DNA of 28,383 bases from a virus, in IMG/VR virus record IMGVR_UViG_3300043119_000867, positions 1-28,383 of that record; one strand, given 5' to 3'. A model generated the notes under the pieces. It was not told the origin of the DNA and did not search any database. It saw only the letters and a program-made list of their open reading frames with translations. A program made the position numbers and the translations under genes. Below are positions 9,795-24,774 of this stretch, one piece after another (the first letter of the stretch is position 1; each line of letters begins with the position of its first letter).

Positions 9795-10382
9795 ATGAGC
9801 ATTCCCATTCCTGCATCCAAGCCCAAGGCCTCGCTTTCTCTCGTTATGCAAAAAGCGCGGGAGAGATGGGAAAAGTGTAATCCGGGGTTTGGGTTGCCGG
9901 AGTTCTTTGTGCTTGCGGTCCGCGGCTATTACTCTGCCACGATCGCGCCTGCTGGAAACAATATCTCTGCGTATGACGATGCGTTTTTCATCGTGTCGCC
10001 GCTGGGTTTCACGGCATGGAATGGCAACACCGATCCGAGCCGCTATGGCTGGAATCCAAATGCTGATAAGTTCATGGCGCGCCTGGCACCTGGATGTTGG
10101 AAGTTTGGGAAAGTGCTTCATCGGAAAAAGTATCAGGCATTCGGCCAGGTGCGGCCGGTGACGGTGGAGCGCATTCGGAAGGATGGCAGCATTGCAATCA
10201 CGGAAACCGGCAGCTTCGGGATTCATGATCATTGCGGCGGAAATAACGGCACATCGTCTGAAGGTTGCACCACTCACCCGATCCCGCAGTGGGAACCGTA
10301 TCGGCGGGAGTTAAACCGAATCATCGACCAGATGGGCGTGAAAATCTATGATTTCATTTTGATCGACGGGCCGATCAACTGA
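9795..10382 (+). CDS. Putative endolysin with L,D-transpeptidase-like H...SxGC signature
   Basis: A 195-residue protein. Residues 138-162 include TGSFGIHDHCGG, then NGTSSEGCTTHPIPQW, so His144/His146 are followed 12-14 residues later by Cys158 in an S-x-G-C context. This pattern recalls both the YkuD L,D-transpeptidase motif and a group of phage proteins with (I)H-x-GG...SS-x-GCQT. Earlier blocks (YYSATIAPAGNN, AYDDAFFIVSP, FTAWNGNTDPSRYGWN) look like a beta-rich substrate cradle. Placed directly after holin-like and spanin-like genes, it is the best candidate for the peptidoglycan-cleaving lysis enzyme. No classical lysozyme or amidase motif is visible. There is no signal peptide, so export would depend on the holin. 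Confidence 0.5.
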   Translation: MSIPIPASKPKASLSLVMQKARERWEKCNPGFGLPEFFVLAVRGYYSATIAPAGNNISAYDDAFFIVSPLGFTAWNGNTDPSRYGWNPNADKFMARLAPGCWKFGKVLHRKKYQAFGQVRPVTVERIRKDGSIAITETGSFGIHDHCGGNNGTSSEGCTTHPIPQWEPYRRELNRIIDQMGVKIYDFILIDGPIN

Positions 10383-16374: not shown

Positions 16375-18702
16375 ATGGCGGAAGTCATTAAAACAATTCT
16401 CACCGCAGACTCCAGCGAACTCGCCGCCGAGTTCGCCAAGGCCTCTGCCGTCGCCCAGAAATACGCAAACGATCGTGCTGCGCAAGGTGGACGAGCTTTG
16501 GCTACGGCCCGGGCGGAAATCGAAGCCTTGCGCTTGGAGGCCGATGGATTTGGCAATCTTGCCGCCAGTATGAGGGCCAGCAACTCTTTGCGTGAGCAGG
16601 CTGTTCGTCTCGCCCAGCAAGCCGGAATCACCGAAGAAAAAGCAAATGCCATTCTTCGTGAAAAACAGCTGTTACAACAGAACATCGCCATCGCCGCTGA
16701 AAGACACGCCGCCGCCGAGGTCGCTGCTGCCCAGCGCTCTGCCCGGCTGAACGCTCCTGGGCGAAATGGTGTATCCCTTCCCGAACTGGCGCTCACCACG
16801 GCAAACTTGCAGGCCATGGAAAAGGGCGCTGCCCGTGCAAATGAGTTGCAACGGAAAATGGAAGGCCTGCGTGGTGGTGGTAGTGGAGCGGCAATGGGTT
16901 TGCTCGCTGTTTCTCAAGCCGCCGAAGATGCTCAGTATGGAATTCGGGGCGTAATCAATAATATTCCGCAGGCAATCATGGCCTTTGGAGGCTTCAGCGC
17001 CGCATCCATGTTTCTTGCTGGTGGTATCTCCATTGCCGCCGTTGCCGCCGTCGCCCTGTATGATCCGATGCGAAAACTGCTAGGATTCATGGATAAGGAG
17101 ATGAACAAGGCGACTTTGAAAAACTGGTCAGAGTCAGTCAAATCGACTGCTAAGGCCATTGCTCAACTTAGGCAAGAATCTGTCTTGGGGCAAAACATGC
17201 TTCGCTTTTCCGATGCTTTGAATGAAAATCTGCGCCAACGGCTTCAGTTAGAAAATGTTCTTTCCGGTTATCTCATTGATCAAGGTGCTGCTCAATCTCG
17301 ACAGCTTGACTATTCGGATCGCATTTATGAGGCCCAGCGCGCCTTGGCGGAGGCGAATGGAAAGTTTATGGCGGCACCTAGTTTGCAGCAGAAGCCCCAA
17401 GCTTTGGAATCAGAATTAGAAAACCGGAAGAAGATTCTTGAAGCTGCTTCAGCTGCTGAAGCAAGCCTTGCGGAGCGAGTAGCCAATGTCTCTGCCGAAA
17501 GTTCTGAAAAATCCATTGCGGCTTCTCAGAAGCTGCTCTTATTGCGTGAAAATCTTGTTACTGTTACTAAAAATCTCGAAGCTGGGCAAAAGGACTTAGA
17601 TGCTGCTCAGAAAAACAAATCCGGCTTTTTGGATACAACTGTGCGAGCAGGTGCTACTTTGATCTCAATGAATCCTATCTCTGGCATTGCTGGAGGGGGC
17701 GTTTACAGCCGCAAAAAAGAAGAAGAGATCGAAGCGGCAACTTTAAAAAACCTTCAAGGAAATCTAGACGCTAGAGAAAAAGTAAAAGTCAAGATTGAGC
17801 AGCAAATTGCGGCTTTGAACAAACAGCGTGAGATTGAATCTACGTCATCTTCCGAAGCCATTGCCGCCGCAAAAGCCAAACTTGATGCTAATCATAAATT
17901 GATGCAGAGTACGGCAGATCAAATCCGCCTGCTTGAAGAGCGTTACCCTATTGAAAAGCAGCTTGCGGATTTAGAAGAGCAGCGCATCAAAGCTTTGGCC
18001 GCAAGAGCTGCCCATGACTTTCAAACAGAACTTTCCATTCAAAACGCGCTGGCGGCAAACGACCAGGAGCGCGTCAAAAGCCTTCAGGAGCAACGTGACA
18101 TCGAAGCGGAAAAAGCATCGATCATGGCCAATCAGAGATCCTTGAGTGATGCTCAAGTTAAAGCCATGGCCAAGCAAATGGTGCAAGCCCGGGCTGCTGC
18201 TGCGGCGGCCAATCAAGAGGCCCAGCGCAATCAGTCCCGGACGGATGTGTTCGGTGATCTTGAGGCCATGAGAATGGAAGCCGCTGGCGACAAAAAAGGT
18301 GCGGACGAGCTTCGCGAGGATCTGCGCATCCGTGAAGAAGCTGTGGCCTTGGCCGAGCGTCTTGGCATCAGCGAAAACCAAGCCACTCTTGTGTTGCGTG
18401 AGCGTGCCAGGCTTCAGAAAGAAATCGATAAGCGGGACGCCGATCCTCAATTTCCCGAGCTCCGCCGGCGCGGAATCCGCAGGCTTGAAAACGGTGCCAA
18501 CGACATGAACGCAGGCAACAACCTGAACACCTGGAAATGGAACATGGCACCCGGGCTGAAATCTAACGAGATCGAACGCCGCAACGCCGCCCGCGCGAAT
18601 CGCCCGCTCAAGCCCTCCGATGACTCTGCAAAAGTGCTTCTCAAATCCGTGAACATCCAAGAGGAGATGCTCAAAATCTGGCAAAAAATCAACGTCGTCT
18701 AA
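16375..18702 (+). CDS. Tail tape measure protein
   Basis: A 775-residue, strongly helical, alanine/glutamate/lysine-rich protein following the G/GT chaperones, the diagnostic place for the tape measure. A hydrophobic stretch at about 196-232 (AIMAFGGFSAASMFLAGGIS, then IAAVAAVALYDP) is the type of membrane-active segment many tape measures use during DNA injection. Much of 250-640 is coiled coil. If extended as alpha-helix at 0.15 nm per residue it would set a tail of roughly 116 nm. A related motif occurs near both ends (about 46-102 and 628-688), each with REEAV-x-LA-x-x-x-GI and LRE. No peptidoglycan hydrolase domain was seen. The start lacks a Shine-Dalgarno. Confidence 0.88.
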   Translation: MAEVIKTILTADSSELAAEFAKASAVAQKYANDRAAQGGRALATARAEIEALRLEADGFGNLAASMRASNSLREQAVRLAQQAGITEEKANAILREKQLLQQNIAIAAERHAAAEVAAAQRSARLNAPGRNGVSLPELALTTANLQAMEKGAARANELQRKMEGLRGGGSGAAMGLLAVSQAAEDAQYGIRGVINNIPQAIMAFGGFSAASMFLAGGISIAAVAAVALYDPMRKLLGFMDKEMNKATLKNWSESVKSTAKAIAQLRQESVLGQNMLRFSDALNENLRQRLQLENVLSGYLIDQGAAQSRQLDYSDRIYEAQRALAEANGKFMAAPSLQQKPQALESELENRKKILEAASAAEASLAERVANVSAESSEKSIAASQKLLLLRENLVTVTKNLEAGQKDLDAAQKNKSGFLDTTVRAGATLISMNPISGIAGGGVYSRKKEEEIEAATLKNLQGNLDAREKVKVKIEQQIAALNKQREIESTSSSEAIAAAKAKLDANHKLMQSTADQIRLLEERYPIEKQLADLEEQRIKALAARAAHDFQTELSIQNALAANDQERVKSLQEQRDIEAEKASIMANQRSLSDAQVKAMAKQMVQARAAAAAANQEAQRNQSRTDVFGDLEAMRMEAAGDKKGADELREDLRIREEAVALAERLGISENQATLVLRERARLQKEIDKRDADPQFPELRRRGIRRLENGANDMNAGNNLNTWKWNMAPGLKSNEIERRNAARANRPLKPSDDSAKVLLKSVNIQEEMLKIWQKINVV

Positions 18703-18703
18703 C

Positions 18704-19462
18704 ATGGAAGCCGCAATCTTTCACGGCAGTTTGCCGTTCATGATGGAAAACATCAACGTCTCACGGGGAGGCCGTGGCGTTTTGGATTCCTTCCGGGCCC
18801 AGATCCTTTGCAGCGCGGATTGGGAAACCGATGCGCGAGCGCTCGGCTTCGAGATCGACAAAAGGCTCGGCAGCTATGCTTCGCTATGGGTAAAATCCAT
18901 GGTGCCAGATGAACAGGCAGAAGACGTGGTAAGCGTGCAAATCAGTGGCGAAGGCCTTGCGAATACAGGTGATCGTCGCCAGCGCACGATGAAAAGCGGC
19001 GAGCAACAAACCAGCGTGGGCCCACACGAAAAGGTGGTCATCGTCTGGAGCAAGGAAGAGCGCGGGGAGGATCCTGAAAGCGAAGAGCCATTGGATCGGG
19101 TGAAAAGCAGAAGGACGAAGTTAGACGCGGACGGCGAGCCAGTTCTCAAATCCATCGTGACGCCATCGGGCACCTTGAAGCAATGGGTGATTTCAGAAGC
19201 GGAAGTGGCTGTGATCGATACCTATTTCGTGACTTCAAAGCCTGCCATGAATGTGGTGGGGACTGTTTTCGCTCCCGTCAACGCTCCCACGGTTCCCCCG
19301 TATCAATGGGGAGGATACGGCGAGCAAAAACGCGGAAGGCATCCTAACGGCTGGGTTCTGGTGGATCGCGATGTGGAGGAAATCAGTTATTTCTCAGACA
19401 CCATCGGCTTGTGGAGAGTGGTCGATAACATGGTATTCCGTCACCCAGATTTCCCCGAGTAA
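18704..19462 (+). CDS. Distal tail/minor tail protein candidate
   Basis: A 252-residue protein just after the tape measure, the usual location of distal tail or minor tail proteins. It begins MEAAIFHGSLPFMMENINVS and has a charged beta-rich body (KVVIVWSKEERGEDPESEEP). A glycine-rich loop (PPYQWGGYGEQKRGRHPNG) precedes a C-terminal half (WVLVDRDVEEISYFSDTIGL, RVVDNMVFRHPDF). No recognised family motif, membrane segment or signal peptide is present. It begins 1 nt after the tape measure stop and is followed 3 nt later by a serine-rich tail gene. A tail-tip structural role is the best inference. Confidence 0.5.
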   Translation: MEAAIFHGSLPFMMENINVSRGGRGVLDSFRAQILCSADWETDARALGFEIDKRLGSYASLWVKSMVPDEQAEDVVSVQISGEGLANTGDRRQRTMKSGEQQTSVGPHEKVVIVWSKEERGEDPESEEPLDRVKSRRTKLDADGEPVLKSIVTPSGTLKQWVISEAEVAVIDTYFVTSKPAMNVVGTVFAPVNAPTVPPYQWGGYGEQKRGRHPNGWVLVDRDVEEISYFSDTIGLWRVVDNMVFRHPDFPE

Positions 19463-19465
19463 GCG

Positions 19466-20767
19466 ATGGATAAGAAGATCCCGAAAGCGGCTGGAAGCGG
19501 CCCTCTGCTCATCAAGCCAGCGTCATGGCAGGCGCTTCTGGATGCTGTCCAGGGGCTGGATATCATTCCTGATCCCAAGGATTTCAACGTCAGCAAGCGT
19601 GAGGGTAAAAAGTTCCTGAGTCTGCGGCCGCCAAATACTCCATCTCGCCCCGGGCCGCCATTGGTTCCGCCGTTCACGCTTTCCGCCAGTGCGACTGGTG
19701 CGCGGGTTTACAAAGGGGTGTTGGAATGGGCAGTGACCACTCTCAACTTCGAGCGGCTCCAGATCAAAGACGCGGACGGGGAATTGCTGGAAGAAGTGAA
19801 CAACTTCACCGGGCAAGATGAAATCACCGGTGTGGAGATGATGGAGCGCAATGGGGAATCCGGTTCTGAAGAAGCCGAGGATTCCTGGTGGGATCTGAGC
19901 TGGTGGGGTGACGTTTGGGCGAAGGTGGTTCTCGATCCTGAGTCGGGGCACCCGTTGAGCTGGGAACTGGTAGGGCCGGAAAAGCCGGAGATGCAATCCA
20001 TCGCGCAACTTTCTGAAGATCTCAGCCGTGGGTCGGGTGCTGGAAGTGACGGTGCCGAGGAAATCGGATTTTCTATTAGAATCGGAAGCGTTCCCGAAGA
20101 GGGGGCGATCATCCAGGACCGGACAGGAAACCTGCAATGGTTCTGTGCGTTTGTGCCGGAGAATCCCAGCTCCATGAGTTCTGAGGCGAGCAGCTCGGAA
20201 GAAAGTAGTTCTGAATCCAGTAGCTCGGAATCTAGCAGCTCGGAAGAAAGCAGCTCGGATGCAAGCAGCCAATCCAGCGGAGGTTCCAGTCAGTCCAGTG
20301 GTGGCTCAAGCGGTGCATCCAGTGGCGGCGGGGGATCATCCGCTGCCAGTGAATCTGAGAAAAGCTCCAATGCCATCGTGGAAGCCCCTTGGACGGAAGG
20401 GAAATTCGTTGCGTTGGCGACTTTGGAAAGCAACCAGGTGCTGTTTGAATTCATCGTTCGAGATATCAAACTGGCGGGCCCTAAGACTCGGGTGAAAATT
20501 GACCCTCGTTTCGTGTATGTCTGCGAGCCGAATTCCCTTTGTGTGGCAGCAGCCCCTTGTGGAGATGCGCCGTTTGCAGTGGGTGCCAAGGTCGAAAAAG
20601 GAGTGCTCACTCTCACTGCCCTGACCCGCGCTGATCGGCGTCCGAAGTTTGTCAACGTGCGACTCACTGGAATCCGCAAAGGCTTCCAGAACTGGGATAT
20701 GCCATCGCGGACAGCGAAACAGAAGAAACAATCCGAAGCGGCGCGCCGGCGCGAGTATGATCGATGA
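19466..20767 (+). CDS. Serine-rich tail-tip protein 1
   Basis: A 433-residue protein with two folded regions joined by a long low-complexity linker. The N-terminal part (1-234) contains beta-rich segments (GVLEWAVTTLNFERLQIKDA) and an acidic/tryptophan stretch (EDSWWDLSWWGDVWAKVVLD). Residues about 235-301 are nearly all Ser with Glu, then Gly (SSSEESSSESSSS, then SSGGSSQSSGG). The C-terminal domain (302-433) resumes with strands and a basic end. Such linkers are flexible, exposed and prone to O-glycosylation in other systems. The stop overlaps the next serine-rich gene (ATGA at 20764), which in turn overlaps a glycosyltransferase fusion. The role is unknown, most likely a tail-tip or adhesion structural protein. 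Confidence 0.65.
   Translation: MDKKIPKAAGSGPLLIKPASWQALLDAVQGLDIIPDPKDFNVSKREGKKFLSLRPPNTPSRPGPPLVPPFTLSASATGARVYKGVLEWAVTTLNFERLQIKDADGELLEEVNNFTGQDEITGVEMMERNGESGSEEAEDSWWDLSWWGDVWAKVVLDPESGHPLSWELVGPEKPEMQSIAQLSEDLSRGSGAGSDGAEEIGFSIRIGSVPEEGAIIQDRTGNLQWFCAFVPENPSSMSSEASSSEESSSESSSSESSSSEESSSDASSQSSGGSSQSSGGSSGASSGGGGSSAASESEKSSNAIVEAPWTEGKFVALATLESNQVLFEFIVRDIKLAGPKTRVKIDPRFVYVCEPNSLCVAAAPCGDAPFAVGAKVEKGVLTLTALTRADRRPKFVNVRLTGIRKGFQNWDMPSRTAKQKKQSEAARRREYDR
20168..20368 (+). repeat. Serine-codon low-complexity repeat
   Basis: This is the DNA of the Ser/Glu/Gly linker. It contains imperfect short repeats such as AGCAGCTCGGAAGAAAG at 20189-20205 and again at 20234-20250. Mixed AGC, AGT, TCC, TCG and TCT serine codons show the amino acid pattern is kept while DNA identity drifts, which suggests selection on the protein. 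Confidence 0.8.
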
Positions 20768-21345
20768 GCGAACTCGAAAAATCTTCAGGAAGCGTTTCCA
20801 GTGCCGAGAGTTCGGAAGGCTCATCGGCATCATCCGCATCAAGCTATTTTTCCTCGCTGAGTTCATCATCGTATGCGCCTGGCGATTCCAGTTCTGAAAG
20901 TTCCTATGATCCGCCGGTGCCTGTTTCCAGTTCTTCAAGCGCAAGTAGCAACGATGACTGCCCGGGTAATCTTTTCTCTTTGACGGTATCCTTGACGTGG
21001 GTGGGAGCATGGGACTGGGATCTTCACTTGAAGACTCCATCCGGTGCCCACATTTACTATGGTGCCTTGTCGGGAGATGGGTTCGAATTGAACCACGATG
21101 CCCACCCGTCTTGCGCGGATGATCCATTCCCTCCGGAAACCATCGAAGGGGTGGGTGCGTGCTACGGAGAGTATCTCGCTTACAAAAATCTTTTCTCGAA
21201 TTGTAACAGTCCGGGAGATGCTACGTTCACCGGTTCGATCACGGTGATGGCTCCGGACGGGCTGATGGTGGATGGCGTCTTCCGGGCCGCTGGAGCAGTG
21301 GTGGGAATCACCAACGACTTTCCATTTTTGATAGAAAGACCATGA
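20764..21345 (+). CDS. Serine-rich tail-tip protein 2 with DUF2135/YfaP-like domain
   Basis: A 193-residue protein. The first 62 residues are again serine-rich (SSGSVSSAESSEGSSASSAS and SSSSSASS). The domain at about 71-190 starts SLTVSLTWVGAWDWDLHLKT, continues PSGAHIYYG, and later has NHDAHPSCADDP and GEYLAYKNLF. The W-x-x-x-x-D-x-D-LH-x-x-x-PSG-x-x-IYYG pattern, with a D-x-D pair and a later NHDA, resembles DUF2135/YfaP-like beta-sandwich domains. These occur in surface and secreted proteins and may bind metal or glycan. Start and stop both use ATGA overlaps with neighbours, so the three genes form one coupled unit. It is probably exposed on the tail tip. Confidence 0.65.
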   Translation: MSELEKSSGSVSSAESSEGSSASSASSYFSSLSSSSYAPGDSSSESSYDPPVPVSSSSSASSNDDCPGNLFSLTVSLTWVGAWDWDLHLKTPSGAHIYYGALSGDGFELNHDAHPSCADDPFPPETIEGVGACYGEYLAYKNLFSNCNSPGDATFTGSITVMAPDGLMVDGVFRAAGAVVGITNDFPFLIERP

Positions 21346-23654
21346 ACGAATCCATGATAGACAACGGGCCGGAACTATGGCGTGAGCTTCACCACTTCCC
21401 GAGCACTTGGGATGGTGATCCGGTCAAGGCCGAGCAATTCCTATCAGGATTCTCCGCCCGCATCACTTGCTGTAAATGCCGGAAGTGCTGGGAAGACATG
21501 GTGATGAATCACCCGATGCCGCTGTCTTCAGAAGCGGTGTTCTGGTGGACGGTAAAACTTCACAACATGGTCAATTCGAAACTTGGCAAGCTTTTGTTCA
21601 CCTCCGAGCAGGCGCAGGCTCTTTACCCATCTCCACCGCCATCGGTTCCGATCTGTATTCCCATTCATCACAAAGGAGGGAAGTTCAAAGATAACACCGA
21701 GTTGCGATATACTTTGAGATCCATCGAAAAGCATTTTCAGGGAGCTTGCCAAGTGTGGCTGGTTTGTAAAAAGATGCCTGAAGGGTTTGAGGGCTGTCAT
21801 CATCTGTTCGATGGCGGCAAGGGGTTGAAAACCGCTCTGCGAATCACCTCAGAAAAACACCCCGATGGCTTCTTCTGGTGGTATGATGATTCGGTGTTGC
21901 TGCTTCCTCAGACCGTGGAGGATTTGAAAACCACGATTGCCAGTCGTCGGTGGTCAAACGCGCAGACGGGCTGGGCGCGGCAGTTGACGAAGATCAAAGA
22001 GCGGCTGGAAGCGGAAGGGTATGTGGCTCACGATTACTCCAGACCTCACGGACCTTACTGGTTCGACAAGGGAATGGTCGATGAGGGCTTCGCGGATTGG
22101 CCGAACATGGCCGCCAAGTTTCCATGGGAATCATGGATACTTTCCAAGCGCGATTGGCCACGCCGTCACGGCAACTACAAGCAGTATTATGGTGCTTTCA
22201 AATCACTTCCGGGAGATCGTGACGTGTTGCTGAATTTTTGTGATGGTGGGTTTACTCCGGAGTTGAAATCGCTGCTGGAAGAGTTTTACCCGAAGCGTTC
22301 GACATTCGAAACCGGAACTGCAATCCGTCCGAAGATCCAAGTTCACACCATCCGTTTCGGGGAGAAATGGTGGCTGCAACTTTGCTCTCCCACGCTGGAT
22401 TCATGGTGCAAGCGGCACGGCCATCCGCTCAAGATCTGGACGAGCGAAAATATCAATCCCGACTATCCGAACTCGAAATTCTGTCAGATCGATATGCTGC
22501 GCGATTTTGTGGAAAGCGGTGATGATTGGATGATCTATGTCGATGCCGATGTGTATGTGGATGAGTTGGCTCCAGCGCATCCAGTTCTTTCGCCCGGTTT
22601 CTGGATTCGGGAGGATCTGCCAGGAGCGGGGCCTAGAGATTTCGGAAGGTGGCTGCGTAAGCACAAGAAAAGTTCACCGGGCTGGGCCTATCGAAACGCG
22701 GGCGTGTGGATGTGTGATCGTAAATCAGCGCAAACGCTTTTGGAAACCATCAGCCCGCCTTATCTCGTCGGCTGCATGGAGCAGCATCAATGGAACTGGT
22801 GGCTTTCTCAGTCGGCGGCCAAGGGCTTGCATGTCGGTTTTCTTGATGGGGCGTGGAATTCATGGGCGTTTGAAAACAAGAAAGGGGCATTCTATCACAT
22901 CGCCGGAAAGAAGAAATCGCAGCGGGTGGAAATGTTTCGCGCCAATGGCCTGATCCCTCTGGATCCTCCTCTGCAAGCGGTGGCTGAGATTCCCCGAGTG
23001 TTCTACTTTGAGCCCTATCGTTTTGCGAAATGTGATTCGATGATGGCCATGGATGAGATGCACATTCAGCTTTTGTTTTTGGCGGCCACTCTTGAAACAA
23101 CTCGGGAAAAATCGAAAAGAGTGGCTGTGGAAATCGGCTCATACCGAGGGGCTTCCACGGCTGCATTGATCGAAGCACTCAACCAAGGATATTTCGGGCA
23201 TCTGCATGTGATCGAAATCAAGCCCACCGAGACACTTCGCAAAATTCTAGCGATGGCCAAGGATTCTTCCCGAGTCACTCTTCACACTCAGGCATCTTGG
23301 GATCTGGATATCACTGCTGCGGATTTCGTGTTCATCGATGGTGATCACAAATGGCCTGCGGTGGCGGATACCCTCCGGGCAATTACCTGGGGCGCTGAAG
23401 TGATCGCCATGCACGATAGTGAGTCATGGCCGCAAATCCCCGGCACTTGGGGGGCGAAGCTGGCGGCAAAGTGCCTGCGAGAGATGCCAGCAAGGACTGT
23501 GTTCGAAGATTGCCAACTTCGCGGAGGAATGCAGACGCAACGCGGCTTCATCGTTTCAGCGAGTTCGGAAATCAACGTCACTCCGCTTGAAGATTTTTTG
23601 AAGCTGGGATCTTCCTCTTCATCGCAAGCCTCTTTTGCAACACGCTTGCCGTAG
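21342..23654 (+). CDS. Four-part fusion: Erv/ALR-like domain, two glycosyltransferase-like domains, methyltransferase
   Basis: A 770-residue putative tail-glycan enzyme. Residues 12-83 resemble an Erv/ALR thiol oxidase fold: LWRELHHFPSTW, CKCRKC (CxxC at 46-49) and KLHNMVNSKLGK (72-83, the HN-x-VN-x-x-LGK signature). Residues about 102-320 look like a Stealth-type or related sugar-phosphate transferase (IPIHHKGG, LRYTLRSIEKHF, WYDDSVLLLPQ with Asp182/183). Residues about 330-540 contain a GT-A-like core (MIYVDADVYVDE, DxD at 401-403; FCQIDMLRDF; NAGVWMCDR). Residues about 550-745 are a class I methyltransferase of family-24 type (AVEIGSYRGASTAALIEAL; FVFIDGDHKW; VIAMHDS). It is coupled by ATGA overlap to the serine-rich tail genes. 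Its 3' end overlaps the convergent integrase by 77 nt. The domain calls are by eye. Confidence 0.72.
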   Translation: MNESMIDNGPELWRELHHFPSTWDGDPVKAEQFLSGFSARITCCKCRKCWEDMVMNHPMPLSSEAVFWWTVKLHNMVNSKLGKLLFTSEQAQALYPSPPPSVPICIPIHHKGGKFKDNTELRYTLRSIEKHFQGACQVWLVCKKMPEGFEGCHHLFDGGKGLKTALRITSEKHPDGFFWWYDDSVLLLPQTVEDLKTTIASRRWSNAQTGWARQLTKIKERLEAEGYVAHDYSRPHGPYWFDKGMVDEGFADWPNMAAKFPWESWILSKRDWPRRHGNYKQYYGAFKSLPGDRDVLLNFCDGGFTPELKSLLEEFYPKRSTFETGTAIRPKIQVHTIRFGEKWWLQLCSPTLDSWCKRHGHPLKIWTSENINPDYPNSKFCQIDMLRDFVESGDDWMIYVDADVYVDELAPAHPVLSPGFWIREDLPGAGPRDFGRWLRKHKKSSPGWAYRNAGVWMCDRKSAQTLLETISPPYLVGCMEQHQWNWWLSQSAAKGLHVGFLDGAWNSWAFENKKGAFYHIAGKKKSQRVEMFRANGLIPLDPPLQAVAEIPRVFYFEPYRFAKCDSMMAMDEMHIQLLFLAATLETTREKSKRVAVEIGSYRGASTAALIEALNQGYFGHLHVIEIKPTETLRKILAMAKDSSRVTLHTQASWDLDITAADFVFIDGDHKWPAVADTLRAITWGAEVIAMHDSESWPQIPGTWGAKLAAKCLREMPARTVFEDCQLRGGMQTQRGFIVSASSEINVTPLEDFLKLGSSSSSQASFATRLP

Positions 23655-24774
23655 CTCTTCCCGTTAGGAATCCCACCTCGGCATCGGGTGCCGTTCCTAA
23701 CATTGCCAATTCCTTCGCGCTCCAGGATCGTCCCGCAACCGCTTTCCAATCTCCGGGCACCGCGGCTTCCAGCGCTGTCATCCATTTCTGCCATTGCCCG
23801 GGCGGGATCGGGCGTTTGTAGCTCGCACGGATTTCCGATGGGGAATTTCCGCTTTCCTCCGCCACTCGGCCAATGTCGTGGATTTCCTGCAACCGGTAGG
23901 TGATCCGTGAGTGGCGCAAGACATCGATGGTCCATTTCAGCCCCAGCCTTCTGGCGATCTCAGAAACCTCATTCTGCGCCTTCAGGCGGCAAATGTGGCC
24001 CTGCTTCCCCGCCCGCTTGCGTGACGCGTCCCTGCAAGCCACCAGCAGCCGCATGACGTGATCCGGCACCGGGAGCCATCGCTCTGCCGCCACCTTCCGC
24101 GCCACCTCCGCGCGGACATGCAGCAAGCCTTGGGCTTCGTCCAGATCGCTCCACAAAAGCCGCTGGCACTCAAACGGCCGGCAGCCGAGCCAGCCTGCGA
24201 CGATGAGATAGGCCAGATGATGCGGGGCCTTTTCCGATACTGCCGCCAGCAATGCCCGCCCCGCTTCTGGCGTGAAAATTTCAGGGGCTTTCTTGTCAGG
24301 CTTTTTCCGAGTCACATTGGAGATCGGAGGAGGCGTGGCGCGTGGCCATCGGTGCCCGCGCACCGCCCAGTTGAAAAACAACGTCCAGTAAGAATGTCGG
24401 TTTGCCATCGTCCGCTTTCCCGCACTGCCCCGGGCAATGTGACTTTCCAGAAGTTCCGCCGTCACCTCCTCCAGCAACACCGCTCCATGTGCCCGGGCAA
24501 ACGCAGTTAGTTCCGATTTCGGCCCTCGAACCGTGATGGTCGGGTGCTTGCGCTCATACTCCTTCAGGAACTCAACCACGGCCTTTGCCATCGTCACCCG
24601 TTCCATTTCTGCCCCGCCCTGCGCCATGAACCACCGCGCCGCCTCTGCCAGCCGCCCGGCATCCTTGGACACCTTCAAAGCCGCCTCCAAGTGCGAGAGG
24701 AGCGCCGGAACATTCTCCGCGCTTCCTGCCAGCCTCCTGAGCCATTCCAGCTGCTCCTTCGCCGCCGGAGTCAC
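23578..24774 (-). CDS. int: Tyrosine recombinase integrase (core-binding and catalytic parts)
   Basis: Site-specific recombinase that would integrate the phage at a tmRNA/tRNA-type site. The 398-residue frame carries the catalytic residues: Arg199 in GCRPFE, Lys227 (ARKVA), His288 and Arg290 in DVLRHSRIT, Asn310 in the ESGNSPSEIR block (often His or Trp), and the nucleophile Tyr319 in ASYKRP. The core-binding domain lies around 60-140 (AKAVVEFLKEYE, SYWTLFFNWAVR). The frame begins at a GTG (24774), but a matching N-terminal arm-binding segment lies just upstream in a different frame, separated by a run of seven G on this strand. So the intact protein would be about 463 residues if one G were absent. 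Its 3' end overlaps the convergent tail glycosyltransferase gene. Confidence 0.9.
   Translation of the reverse strand: MTPAAKEQLEWLRRLAGSAENVPALLSHLEAALKVSKDAGRLAEAARWFMAQGGAEMERVTMAKAVVEFLKEYERKHPTITVRGPKSELTAFARAHGAVLLEEVTAELLESHIARGSAGKRTMANRHSYWTLFFNWAVRGHRWPRATPPPISNVTRKKPDKKAPEIFTPEAGRALLAAVSEKAPHHLAYLIVAGWLGCRPFECQRLLWSDLDEAQGLLHVRAEVARKVAAERWLPVPDHVMRLLVACRDASRKRAGKQGHICRLKAQNEVSEIARRLGLKWTIDVLRHSRITYRLQEIHDIGRVAEESGNSPSEIRASYKRPIPPGQWQKWMTALEAAVPGDWKAVAGRSWSAKELAMLGTAPDAEVGFLTGRATASVLQKRLAMKRKIPASKNLQAE

Follow-up and report, generated by a model that had tools for sequence, protein, structure and literature searches.

Two adjacent serine-rich proteins, A and B, followed directly by an enzyme fusion with glycosyltransferase (GT) parts, were analysed in a viral DNA stretch of 28,383 nucleotides (the window). 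We consider it likely that both belong to the phage tail and are built to carry sugars, which the neighbouring phage enzyme attaches. Such a presumed acceptor pair is marked, together with its enzyme, by the gene order of two dozen uncultivated phage contigs and of one Planctomycetota prophage; this is probably a real and widespread variant of virion self-glycosylation. New in this analysis are an Erv1/Alr domain in the fusion, the Stealth fold of its first GT part, and a motif common to A and B.

Results

The serine-rich pair and its surroundings

Protein A (433 aa, 19466..20767, + strand) is an open reading frame with a beta-rich N-terminal part, a Ser-rich linker and a C-terminal cap domain, and is the presumed glycan acceptor. 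The 67-residue Ser/Glu/Gly linker reported in the initial annotation was found at residues 234-300 (20165..20365, +); it holds 38 Ser, 9 Glu and 9 Gly, and the pLDDT is below 50 at residues 227-300. Serine codons in the 60 residues preceding the cap are 18 AGY and 16 TCN; with both codon families in use, the linker is no mere DNA microsatellite. The cap, which starts with KSSNAIV (20360..20764, +), was delimited by alignment and scans, and 24 of the 25 phage records contain it. In the predicted structure of A, whose mean pLDDT is only 59, beta-rich parts flank the disordered linker. Compared to the PDB, the model gave no significant match to a solved structure (best Foldseek E 0.18), and its best VIA-align score, with phage tailspike tips, was a Z of 6.7, below the trustworthy level. 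It does match BFVD entry A0A6J5NUE5 (E 9.8e-10), an uncharacterised phage protein. No PHROG family was found for the A proteins (22 members).

Protein B (193 aa, 20764..21345, +) is an open reading frame with a Ser-rich start and a C-terminal part containing 4 Cys. Its serine-rich start, to which a length of 56 residues had been given, was recovered as 32 Ser among the first 65 residues. Residues 72-127 match phrog_1735 (function unknown) with an E of 1.6e-4. The reading frames and coordinates initially reported were all found as described, as were the ATGA overlaps at the A/B and B/fusion joints (gap of −4 at each). The A and B proteins have in common a junction motif, GSxK[ST]xxxV, whose reduced form in the window, KSSGSV (20779..20796, +), was recognised by motif comparison; the pattern was drawn up with the sequences already in view, and the motif count covers ORFs of 60 aa and above.

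Upstream of A lies a 775-aa protein (16375..18702, +), which from its size and place is the probable tape measure. It has no Pfam or PHROG match; the protein at the same place in relative L018 matches PhageMin_Tail (1.1e-45). Between it and A stands a 252-aa protein (18704..19462, +) with no Pfam or PHROG family match, and a gene of similar size is found there in L008-L011. An integrase gene (23581..24774, − strand; phrog_1 integrase, E 5.1e-21) is convergent with the fusion gene and overlaps its 3′ end. This gene order suggests that A and B belong to the virion.

The enzyme fusion

The third protein, of 770 aa (21342..23654, +; ORF, Pfam), had been described as a glycosyltransferase/methyltransferase fusion. 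Both activities are indeed predicted, but the description was incomplete, as it omitted an N-terminal Erv1/Alr domain and the first GT part has a Stealth fold.

The N-terminus is an Erv1/Alr domain, a predicted thiol oxidase (residues 12-91, 21375..21614, +). It matches Pfam PF04777 (E 1.5e-7; 32.2 bits, for a cut-off of 27.6), and its best PDB match is 3gwl, an FAD-linked sulfhydryl oxidase (E 3.5e-6). A CxxC (C43-C46) and HNMVN (74-78) both align with 3gwl; we take CxxC and HNxVN to be the defining motifs of Erv1/Alr sulfhydryl oxidases. The structure was poorly predicted here (pLDDT 44-71 in blocks). A pattern scan of viral contigs for the domain returned nothing, the phages collection gave matches at E 9 only, and plasmids gave none; among the open-access literature matches listed, none reported an Erv1 domain in a tailed phage. 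The domain is present in 2 of the 25 records, and in G005 it is a separate gene; it was rejected as a general partner of the Ser-rich system. It may serve the Cys of B, of which the window B has 4 and the B protein of the G005 phage none.

About residues 100-325 (21639..22316, +) form a Stealth-fold, sugar-phosphate-transferase-like domain, recognised by fold comparison and a profile match. The model is good over residues 101-328 (pLDDT 70-96 in blocks), with Foldseek matches to CpsY (7.4e-8) and GNPTAB (1.7e-7). VIA-align gave a Z of 18.5 with GNPTAB (rmsd 4.4, 237 aligned) and 17.3 with CpsY, the next-best other GT folds reaching 12.4. We conclude that, in the predicted structure, the first GT part of the fusion has the Stealth (sugar-phosphate transferase) fold. 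The Pfam score for Stealth_CR2 is 15.4 bits in the window fusion, below the curated cut-off of 39.4, and the Stealth regions of relatives L017 and L031 also score below the curated cut-off (26.6 and 28.2 bits). Profile-profile comparison of A7, a profile of 8 sequences, with the L017/L031 proteins gave a probability of 99.0 and an E of 9.1e-18. At the CR2 position of A7, placed from alignments and CpsY numbering, an Asp-Asp is invariant (8/8), and the residue before it is Tyr (8/8). Asn322 and Asp324 are important in CpsY according to an excerpt of PMC10668966; the phage domain carries a Tyr in place of Asn322, and its chemistry may differ accordingly.

A second GT-like part, at about residues 330-560 (22329..23021, +), is proposed from a DxD motif, within VDADVY at 400, and from its alignment with the start of a 740-aa protein of relative L002; no Pfam match was found for these residues. 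It is followed by a methyltransferase domain (residues 596-681, 23127..23384, +; PF13578, E 3.6e-9). At E up to 0.1, Pfam detected in the whole fusion only Evr1_Alr, Methyltransf_24 and a weak Stealth_CR2, and no GT4-type domain. No transmembrane-like stretch was detected in the fusion (maximal KD19 1.07), nor in the 16 others of the 17 GT proteins examined, all of which are under 1.6. There is thus no gtr-type membrane set among them.

Relatives carrying the cap domain

Direct searches had a low yield. Viral contigs queried with the 770-aa fusion returned L002 and a weak, methyltransferase-only match, L003, and those queried with the 433-aa protein A returned nothing. Narrow contig scans yielded two contigs for alignments A1 and A4, one for A3 and seven for A6. 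The genome contigs gave no match with A4 and a single one with A6, L007, which was read as false, as neither a GT nor a Ser-rich pair lies at the match. The phages collection contained no match for the fusion, the window A, or the A proteins of L018 and L029. Among the open-access literature matches listed, none reported Ser-rich phage tail proteins beside GTs.

The cap-domain alignment A9 was scanned against IMG/VR and retrieved 23 contigs, making 24 loci with the window; a single short pattern was used, so that these are at least 23 and some members may be missed. Seven of the 24 loci were query seeds found through the enzyme, and the 17 new ones were counted apart. A Ser-rich stretch precedes the cap in 24/24 loci (17/17 without seeds), the best 25-residue window in the 80 residues before the cap containing 13 to 21 Ser in each of the 24 proteins. 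The letters of the linker vary between phages while its Ser content is constant. A Ser-rich B adjoins A in all 24 loci (23 by script, L017 added separately). Past B, each of the 23 testable loci has a GT gene (16/16 without seeds), L020 being left out as its contig ends 294 nt past A. The GT types are Stealth-type (9 loci, the calls for L017 and L031 resting on profile A7, at 5.1e-7 and 2.5e-14, and on sub-cut-off Pfam scores), GT25 (4), GT9 (8) and GT9 with a mannosyltransferase (2). These loci are not independent, as the 8 GT9 loci form one clade and two pairs are near-copies. The survey of relatives proposed in the initial annotation therefore favours co-occurrence of Ser-rich tail proteins with the enzyme. 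Translational coupling, also proposed there, holds in the window with its ATGA overlaps and is not general, the GT gene being on the opposite strand in 8/24 loci.

As a control, the neighbours were compared in 22 loci, excluding the near-copies L022 and L033 (L034 has no upstream protein, and L020 no downstream one). A GT family match at 1e-5 was found for 1 of 63 upstream proteins; among 76 downstream proteins, GT9 was found in 8, GT25 in 4, and others besides. Over the 25 records, all 10 GT9 matches and 4 of 5 GT25 matches fall at A/B. Serine richness is similarly localised, more so than chance would give. Of the 362 non-overlapping ORFs with 100 aa or more in the 24 loci, 41 reach 50% Ser or more in some 25-residue window; A and B account for 34 of these, and the other 7 are all the same additional gene, located past the GT gene in a single phage group. 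In the GT9 group, B proteins are only 39-75 aa long, are 54-83% Ser and contain the motif. Such proteins are little but Ser and motif, which leaves a carrier role as the obvious one.

The presence of three GT families at the same place implies at least two exchanges. On the cap-domain tree, the enzyme type changes at least 4 times, for a minimum of 3 with four types; its deep forks are weakly supported and long branches meet, and it is no proof of more than the minimum number of changes. The tree was built without L048 and without the G390 and G460 pieces. With the enzyme type swapped and the acceptor pair kept across phages, the chemistry appears to vary while the acceptor function stays.

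An enzyme independent of Ser-rich tail genes, named initially as an observation that would speak against the proposal, was seen in part in one relative. L009 keeps the enzyme, and has an Asp/Ser linker (10 Ser and 21 Asp in 52), while both the cap domain and B are missing; its gene in the A position does not significantly resemble the A gene product of L028 (E 0.094). Conversely, a prophage end found afterwards in the Planctomycetota genome G245 has the order A, B, GT25, recombinase. The cap domain was found in five Planctomycetota genomes (at most ten candidates being scored per genome), with collagen-like repeats in G291, G390, G450 and G460. In G390, GT2 and GT1 genes come after the cap behind a collagen-like linker. 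No GT family match was obtained among the neighbours scanned in G291, G450 and G460, the last of which is cut by the contig end, and in G291 a kinase gene adjoins the cap gene. Together with G245, the 23 testable loci support the initial suggestion of a phage that acts on the Ser-rich proteins of its own tail; glycosylation of A and B by the adjacent enzyme is what we infer from this arrangement of genes.

Discussion

Other explanations of the gene order

The targets of the enzymes might instead lie on the host surface, in capsule, LPS or other sugars, so as to exclude superinfection or alter receptors, the tail-gene neighbourhood reflecting a shared role in adsorption. The Pfam descriptions are indeed LPS biosynthesis for GT25 and heptosyltransferase for GT9, an integrase or recombinase adjoins the cassette in the window and in G245, and PMC10202952 names changed cell-wall glycosylation among the roles that phage GTs may have. 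We nevertheless find this unlikely: a transmembrane-like stretch is lacking in all the GT proteins examined, the Ser-rich pair of 24/24 loci is left unexplained, and so is a GT9-group B that is little but Ser and motif. It is still more improbable that the Ser-rich stretches are plain flexible spacers, next to a GT that hitchhikes or modifies DNA at a post-tail cargo site. This would predict mixed genes at that site, and not a GT in every testable locus against a single upstream protein in 63. Flexible linkers are common in fibre proteins, the L009 linker is acidic with the enzyme still there, and collagen-like repeats can stand in for the Ser stretch, all of which would suit spacers; DNA protection has also been proposed as a phage GT role (PMC10202952).

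Finally, the serines could be phosphorylated or otherwise modified by host enzymes, the phage GT being uninvolved. Acidic Ser/Glu or Ser/Asp linkers in the window, L017 and L009 would fit, as would the kinase gene of G291. However, in 6 of 23 loci no more than 2 of the 60 residues preceding the cap are acidic, and no kinase occurs among the 25 families listed, of 26, for the 76 downstream proteins, making this explanation highly improbable.

A possible mechanism

In the likely reading, A and B are proteins of the tail, probably of its fibre or tip. Once they are translated in the host cytosol, the phage enzyme would attach a sugar or a sugar phosphate to serines in the disordered stretches; this may then be extended by the second GT-like part and capped by the methyltransferase, and the Erv1/Alr domain may form disulfides in the tail proteins. 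The phage might benefit through receptor choice, by gaining protection against proteases, or by escaping surface defences.

A bolder version combines a modular glycan fibre, docking of B on the A cap, Stealth-type transfer of sugar-1-phosphate to serine and cytosolic Erv1/Alr oxidation; taken jointly, these are rather doubtful. A would provide a stalk and a cap, and B a clip-on, mucin-like chain, whose GSxK[ST]xxxV segment would copy the start of the A cap and dock onto the cap, so that more Ser-rich glycan chains are added. Stealth-type phages would begin with a direct transfer of sugar-1-phosphate to serine (phosphoglycosylation), and the Erv1/Alr domain would oxidise tail proteins in the host cytosol. 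We know of no description of phosphoglycosylation in phages.

The cap domain and GSxK[ST]xxxV could serve as a simple marker for finding sugar-coated phage tails, and the acceptor/enzyme pairs would offer a natural series for learning the role of the sugar. Disulfide chemistry brought by a tailed phage, as the Erv1/Alr fusion would imply, would be unusual.

Comparison with known systems

Serine-rich repeat proteins, secreted Gram-positive surface adhesins with an accessory Sec system, are glycosylated by a GT4-type initiating pair, GtfA/GtfB. The likeness, a Ser-rich low-complexity acceptor with adjacent GT genes, upholds the analogy drawn in the initial annotation, but it does not extend to the enzyme, since the window fusion has no GT4-type domain according to Pfam. 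The gtr seroconversion modules of temperate phages consist of a membrane flippase and a membrane GT, unlike the window enzyme and the 16 other GT proteins.

The fold of the first GT part is that of the Stealth proteins CpsY and GNPTAB, whose conserved regions align with Stealth-like phage proteins; GNPTAB acts on glycans of lysosomal enzymes. CpsY acts on glucan (PMC10668966, excerpt), and the phage domain differs from it by the Tyr at the place of Asn322 and by its location in a phage tail region. The Erv1/Alr domain, with its CxxC and HNxVN, resembles oxidases of large eukaryotic DNA viruses such as mimivirus R596 (PMC3509050), but is found here in a tailed phage and fused to glycosyltransferase modules.

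The closest known systems are those of Clostridioides difficile spores and of mycobacteriophage virions. In the spores, Thr residues in the collagen-like region of BclA3 receive O-GlcNAc from SgtA (PMC7157674, excerpt). There too, a GT gene directly adjoins that of a low-complexity protein, and collagen-like repeats occur in some of the A-cap proteins. BclA3/SgtA is however a spore-surface system, with no mention of a Ser-rich pair or swapped GT in that excerpt, and the window stalk is Ser/Glu/Gly, stalks being collagen-like only in the four genomes listed above.

In the portions of the literature consulted, reports of phage virion glycosylation concerned mycobacteriophages, in which phage-encoded GTs, and sugars on capsid and tail-tube proteins, have been reported (Freeman et al. 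2023, as cited in excerpts of PMC12363180 and PMC11256854); one related phage has GT genes near the genome 3′ end (same excerpts). The GTs studied here are likewise phage-encoded, as judged by fold in the window and by Pfam families in the relatives. The differences are that the presumed acceptors are Ser-rich proteins beside the GT, that the GT family differs between phages, and that the window enzyme is a multi-module fusion.

Gene order and Ser-rich proteins in the window

The window, a 28,383-base virus record, contains terminase, portal, head-protease and tail-chaperone genes, and also an integrase gene. Downstream of a 775-aa protein, whose size fits a tape measure, and one of 252 aa lie the presumed acceptors A (433 aa, 19466..20767 (+)) and B (193 aa, 20764..21345 (+)) and the 770-aa fusion enzyme (21342..23654 (+)). 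As the initial annotation had stated, A has a 67-residue Ser/Glu/Gly linker, B has a Ser-rich start, and both the A-B and B-fusion joints are ATGA overlaps. Ser accounts for 38 residues of the linker and for 32 of the first 65 residues of B. The later part of B (window:20959-21342) varies among phages, whereas the Ser-rich start is kept; it matches phrog_1735, of unknown function (E 1.6e-4). A 3′-5′ exonuclease-type gene, Rv2179c-like (E 1.4e-25), is found at window:27305-28060.

The fusion enzyme

The name glycosyltransferase/methyltransferase fusion turned out to be incomplete. Pfam found Methyltransf_24 at residues 596-681 (E 3.6e-9), and a glycosyltransferase (GT) part of Stealth fold is present, but the N-terminus also carries an Erv1/Alr domain (Evr1_Alr, residues 12-91, E 1.5e-7, above cut-off). 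Among PDB sequences, the fusion matched sulfhydryl oxidases, 3gwl being the best hit (E 3.5e-6), and showed a weak match to GNPTAB; A7, a profile of eight phage Stealth-type domains, recovered GNPTAB at E 0.00099. The best Foldseek matches of the AlphaFold model were CpsY (7.4e-8) and GNPTAB (1.7e-7), and VIA-align gave Z scores of 18.5 for GNPTAB and 17.3 for CpsY, the next folds reaching 12.4. Profile comparison with three Stealth-like domains from two phages (L017, L031) gave a probability of 99.0 and an E value of 9.1e-18. Because of these model, profile and profile-profile matches, residues 100-325 are assigned the Stealth fold. Two points count against full equivalence with Stealth enzymes: the fusion does not reach the Pfam Stealth cut-off, and the phage domain has a Tyr at the position of the residue reported as Asn322 in CpsY. 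Residues 330-560 resemble a further GT, judging from a DxD motif and alignment with a separate protein of contig L002; Pfam did not confirm a second GT there.

Erv1/Alr was found in only 2 of 25 records, and is therefore an extra rather than part of the core of the cassette. In a second phage of the group, L015:1453-1788 (record of L010, contig 9991-10272) is a separate Erv1/Alr gene of 112 aa (Pfam 5.6e-9), upstream of that phage's A-B-GT genes.

Co-occurrence of Ser-rich proteins and GT genes

A scan with the Stealth-type domain found seven contigs besides the window, and the order Ser-linker A, Ser-start B, enzyme was seen in the window and 6 of these 7. The modules after the Stealth-type domain differ (other GT families, methyltransferases, sulfotransferase, pyruvyl transferase). 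L009 is the exception: its gene at the position of A has a linker of Asp and Ser (21 Asp and 10 Ser among 52 residues), the missing B is replaced by a 211-aa gene with no Pfam match, and no cap domain was found in the record.

The converse survey used A9, an alignment that covers A's cap domain but neither the linker nor the enzyme, and whose seven seeds came from the enzyme-side loci. It yielded 23 contigs, 17 of them new. In each of the 24 loci, that of the window among them, the most Ser-rich 25-residue segment of the 80 residues preceding the cap held 13 to 21 Ser; B was Ser-rich in 23 loci by script, and in L017 by reading. A GT was found beyond B in 23/23 testable loci (16/16 without the seven seeds), these loci sharing ancestry and the Glyco_transf_9 (GT9) group being one clade. 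L020 was left out of this count, since its contig ends 294 bases after A. The gene beyond B was Stealth-type in 9 loci, strongly so in the window, L016, L028 and L035-L038, and more weakly in L017 and L031 (A7 profile 5.1e-7 and 2.5e-14; Pfam scores below its cut-off). It was Glyco_transf_25 (GT25) in 4 (L019, L021, L026, L034), GT9 on the opposite strand in 8 (L023, L024, L025, L027, L029, L030, L032, L033), and GT9 then Mannosyl_trans3 in 2 (L018, L022). Over whole records, 10/10 GT9 and 4/5 GT25 matches lay at A/B. The association behind the initial annotation, that of Ser-rich tail proteins with a GT gene, thus held from the acceptor side; from the enzyme side it did not in L009, which keeps the enzyme without cap or B.

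Members of the GT9 group carry a third gene directly beyond the GT9 gene, and its last part includes a long stretch rich in Ser (L023:9692-10459; L025:4612-5514; L027:9475-10236; L029:9664-10452; L030:3336-4130; L032:9703-10509; L033:7831-8637). The 1286-aa product of L031:9332-13192 combines a Stealth-like region with regions of IRX15/GXM type and a weakly matched one of capsule-synthesis type, and the following gene resembles a radical SAM protein.

As a control, proteins of at least 180 aa were scanned in 22 loci. Upstream, within about 5 kb of A, 63 proteins gave one GT family match at 1e-5 (Glyco_tranf_2_4). Among the 76 downstream proteins, the best 25 of 26 families included GT9 in 8, GT25 in 4, Methyltransf_24 in 4, Stealth_CR2 in 2 and several single GT families, a tally that excludes Stealth-type domains missed by Pfam. 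Ser-rich ORFs numbered 41 among 362 of at least 100 aa; 34 were A or B, and the remaining 7 were the third gene of the GT9 group. Both Ser codon families occurred in the linkers of 22/23 loci (tables read by eye, L017 left out); linker serines were all TCN in L035, and most of the GT9 group favours AGY.

A motif common to A and B

Among 425 ORFs with a length of 60 aa or more, the pattern [YHFLDS]G[SY]xK[ST]xxxV, composed after the sequences were known, matched 17, of which 6 are A and 11 B. In A it marks the linker/cap joint (SGSDKSTAIV). In B it lies either near the start (YGSAKSSSSV) or, for L017 and the majority of the GT9 group, at the end or close to it (HGSPKTSGSV), and mid-protein in L024 and L025; the window B retains KSSGSV alone, and the L035 B lacks the motif. 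A looser form, G[SY]xK[ST], was present in 21/23 B proteins (shuffled mean 1.2, maximum 5). On one reading, B would copy the start of A's cap and dock onto it.

Cap domains in bacterial genomes

A9 was also run on 392 genomes of the phylum of G025 (a Phycisphaerae bacterium, Planctomycetota) and on 397 genomes of the class of G245, two overlapping sets, and matched three genomes in the first and two more in the second. G245 holds a prophage end with A and its Ser linker, B starting MTDYGSAKSSSSVSES, a GT25 (E 2e-9) and a recombinase, beyond which genes read as host-like. Provided that this contig was binned correctly, one such phage would therefore have a host in the Planctomycetota. In G390, an A with collagen-like repeats lies downstream of genes resembling phage tail genes, among them a tape-measure-like gene with no Pfam match; on another contig, the cap's end is followed by GT2/methyltransferase, GT1 and GT2 genes. 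In G291, G450 and G460 the cap also comes with collagen-like repeats, and no GT family match was found among its scanned neighbours, the G460 contig ending there; a kinase gene lies near the cap in G291 and G450.

The collagen-like repeats preceding the cap in Planctomycetota genomes are of GPTGPTG or GPQG type (L045:8310-9455 (-); L048:5235-5975; L050:6140-8949; L051:1-538 (-)). The L050 region lies downstream of genes resembling phage tail genes, and the L045 gene beside host-type genes (poly-A polymerase head domain, kinase). L049:1-1362 (-), located beyond GT genes, has a very long Ser-rich start, and its end reads as what we take to be RHS/YD repeats.

Proposed working and known parallels

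In the window, as in some relatives, the A/B genes come after the tape-measure gene, and VIA-align with the model of A gave the cap a weak likeness to the tips of tailspikes, at a Z of 6.7 that is too low to be trusted. Together, this gene position and this likeness suggest a tail-tip location for A and B. The most likely reading of the gene arrangement is that A and B are modified by the adjoining enzyme. The phage would produce both proteins with their long Ser-rich stretches, plus an enzyme without membrane segments, which would modify these stretches before or during tail assembly; if the enzyme were swapped and the acceptors kept, the sugar would change. Virion glycosylation in mycobacteriophages, as described in PMC12363180 and PMC11256854, is a known parallel to this putative glycosylation cassette. 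Another is BclA3/SgtA where, according to PMC7157674, the GT gene sits immediately upstream of the acceptor gene.
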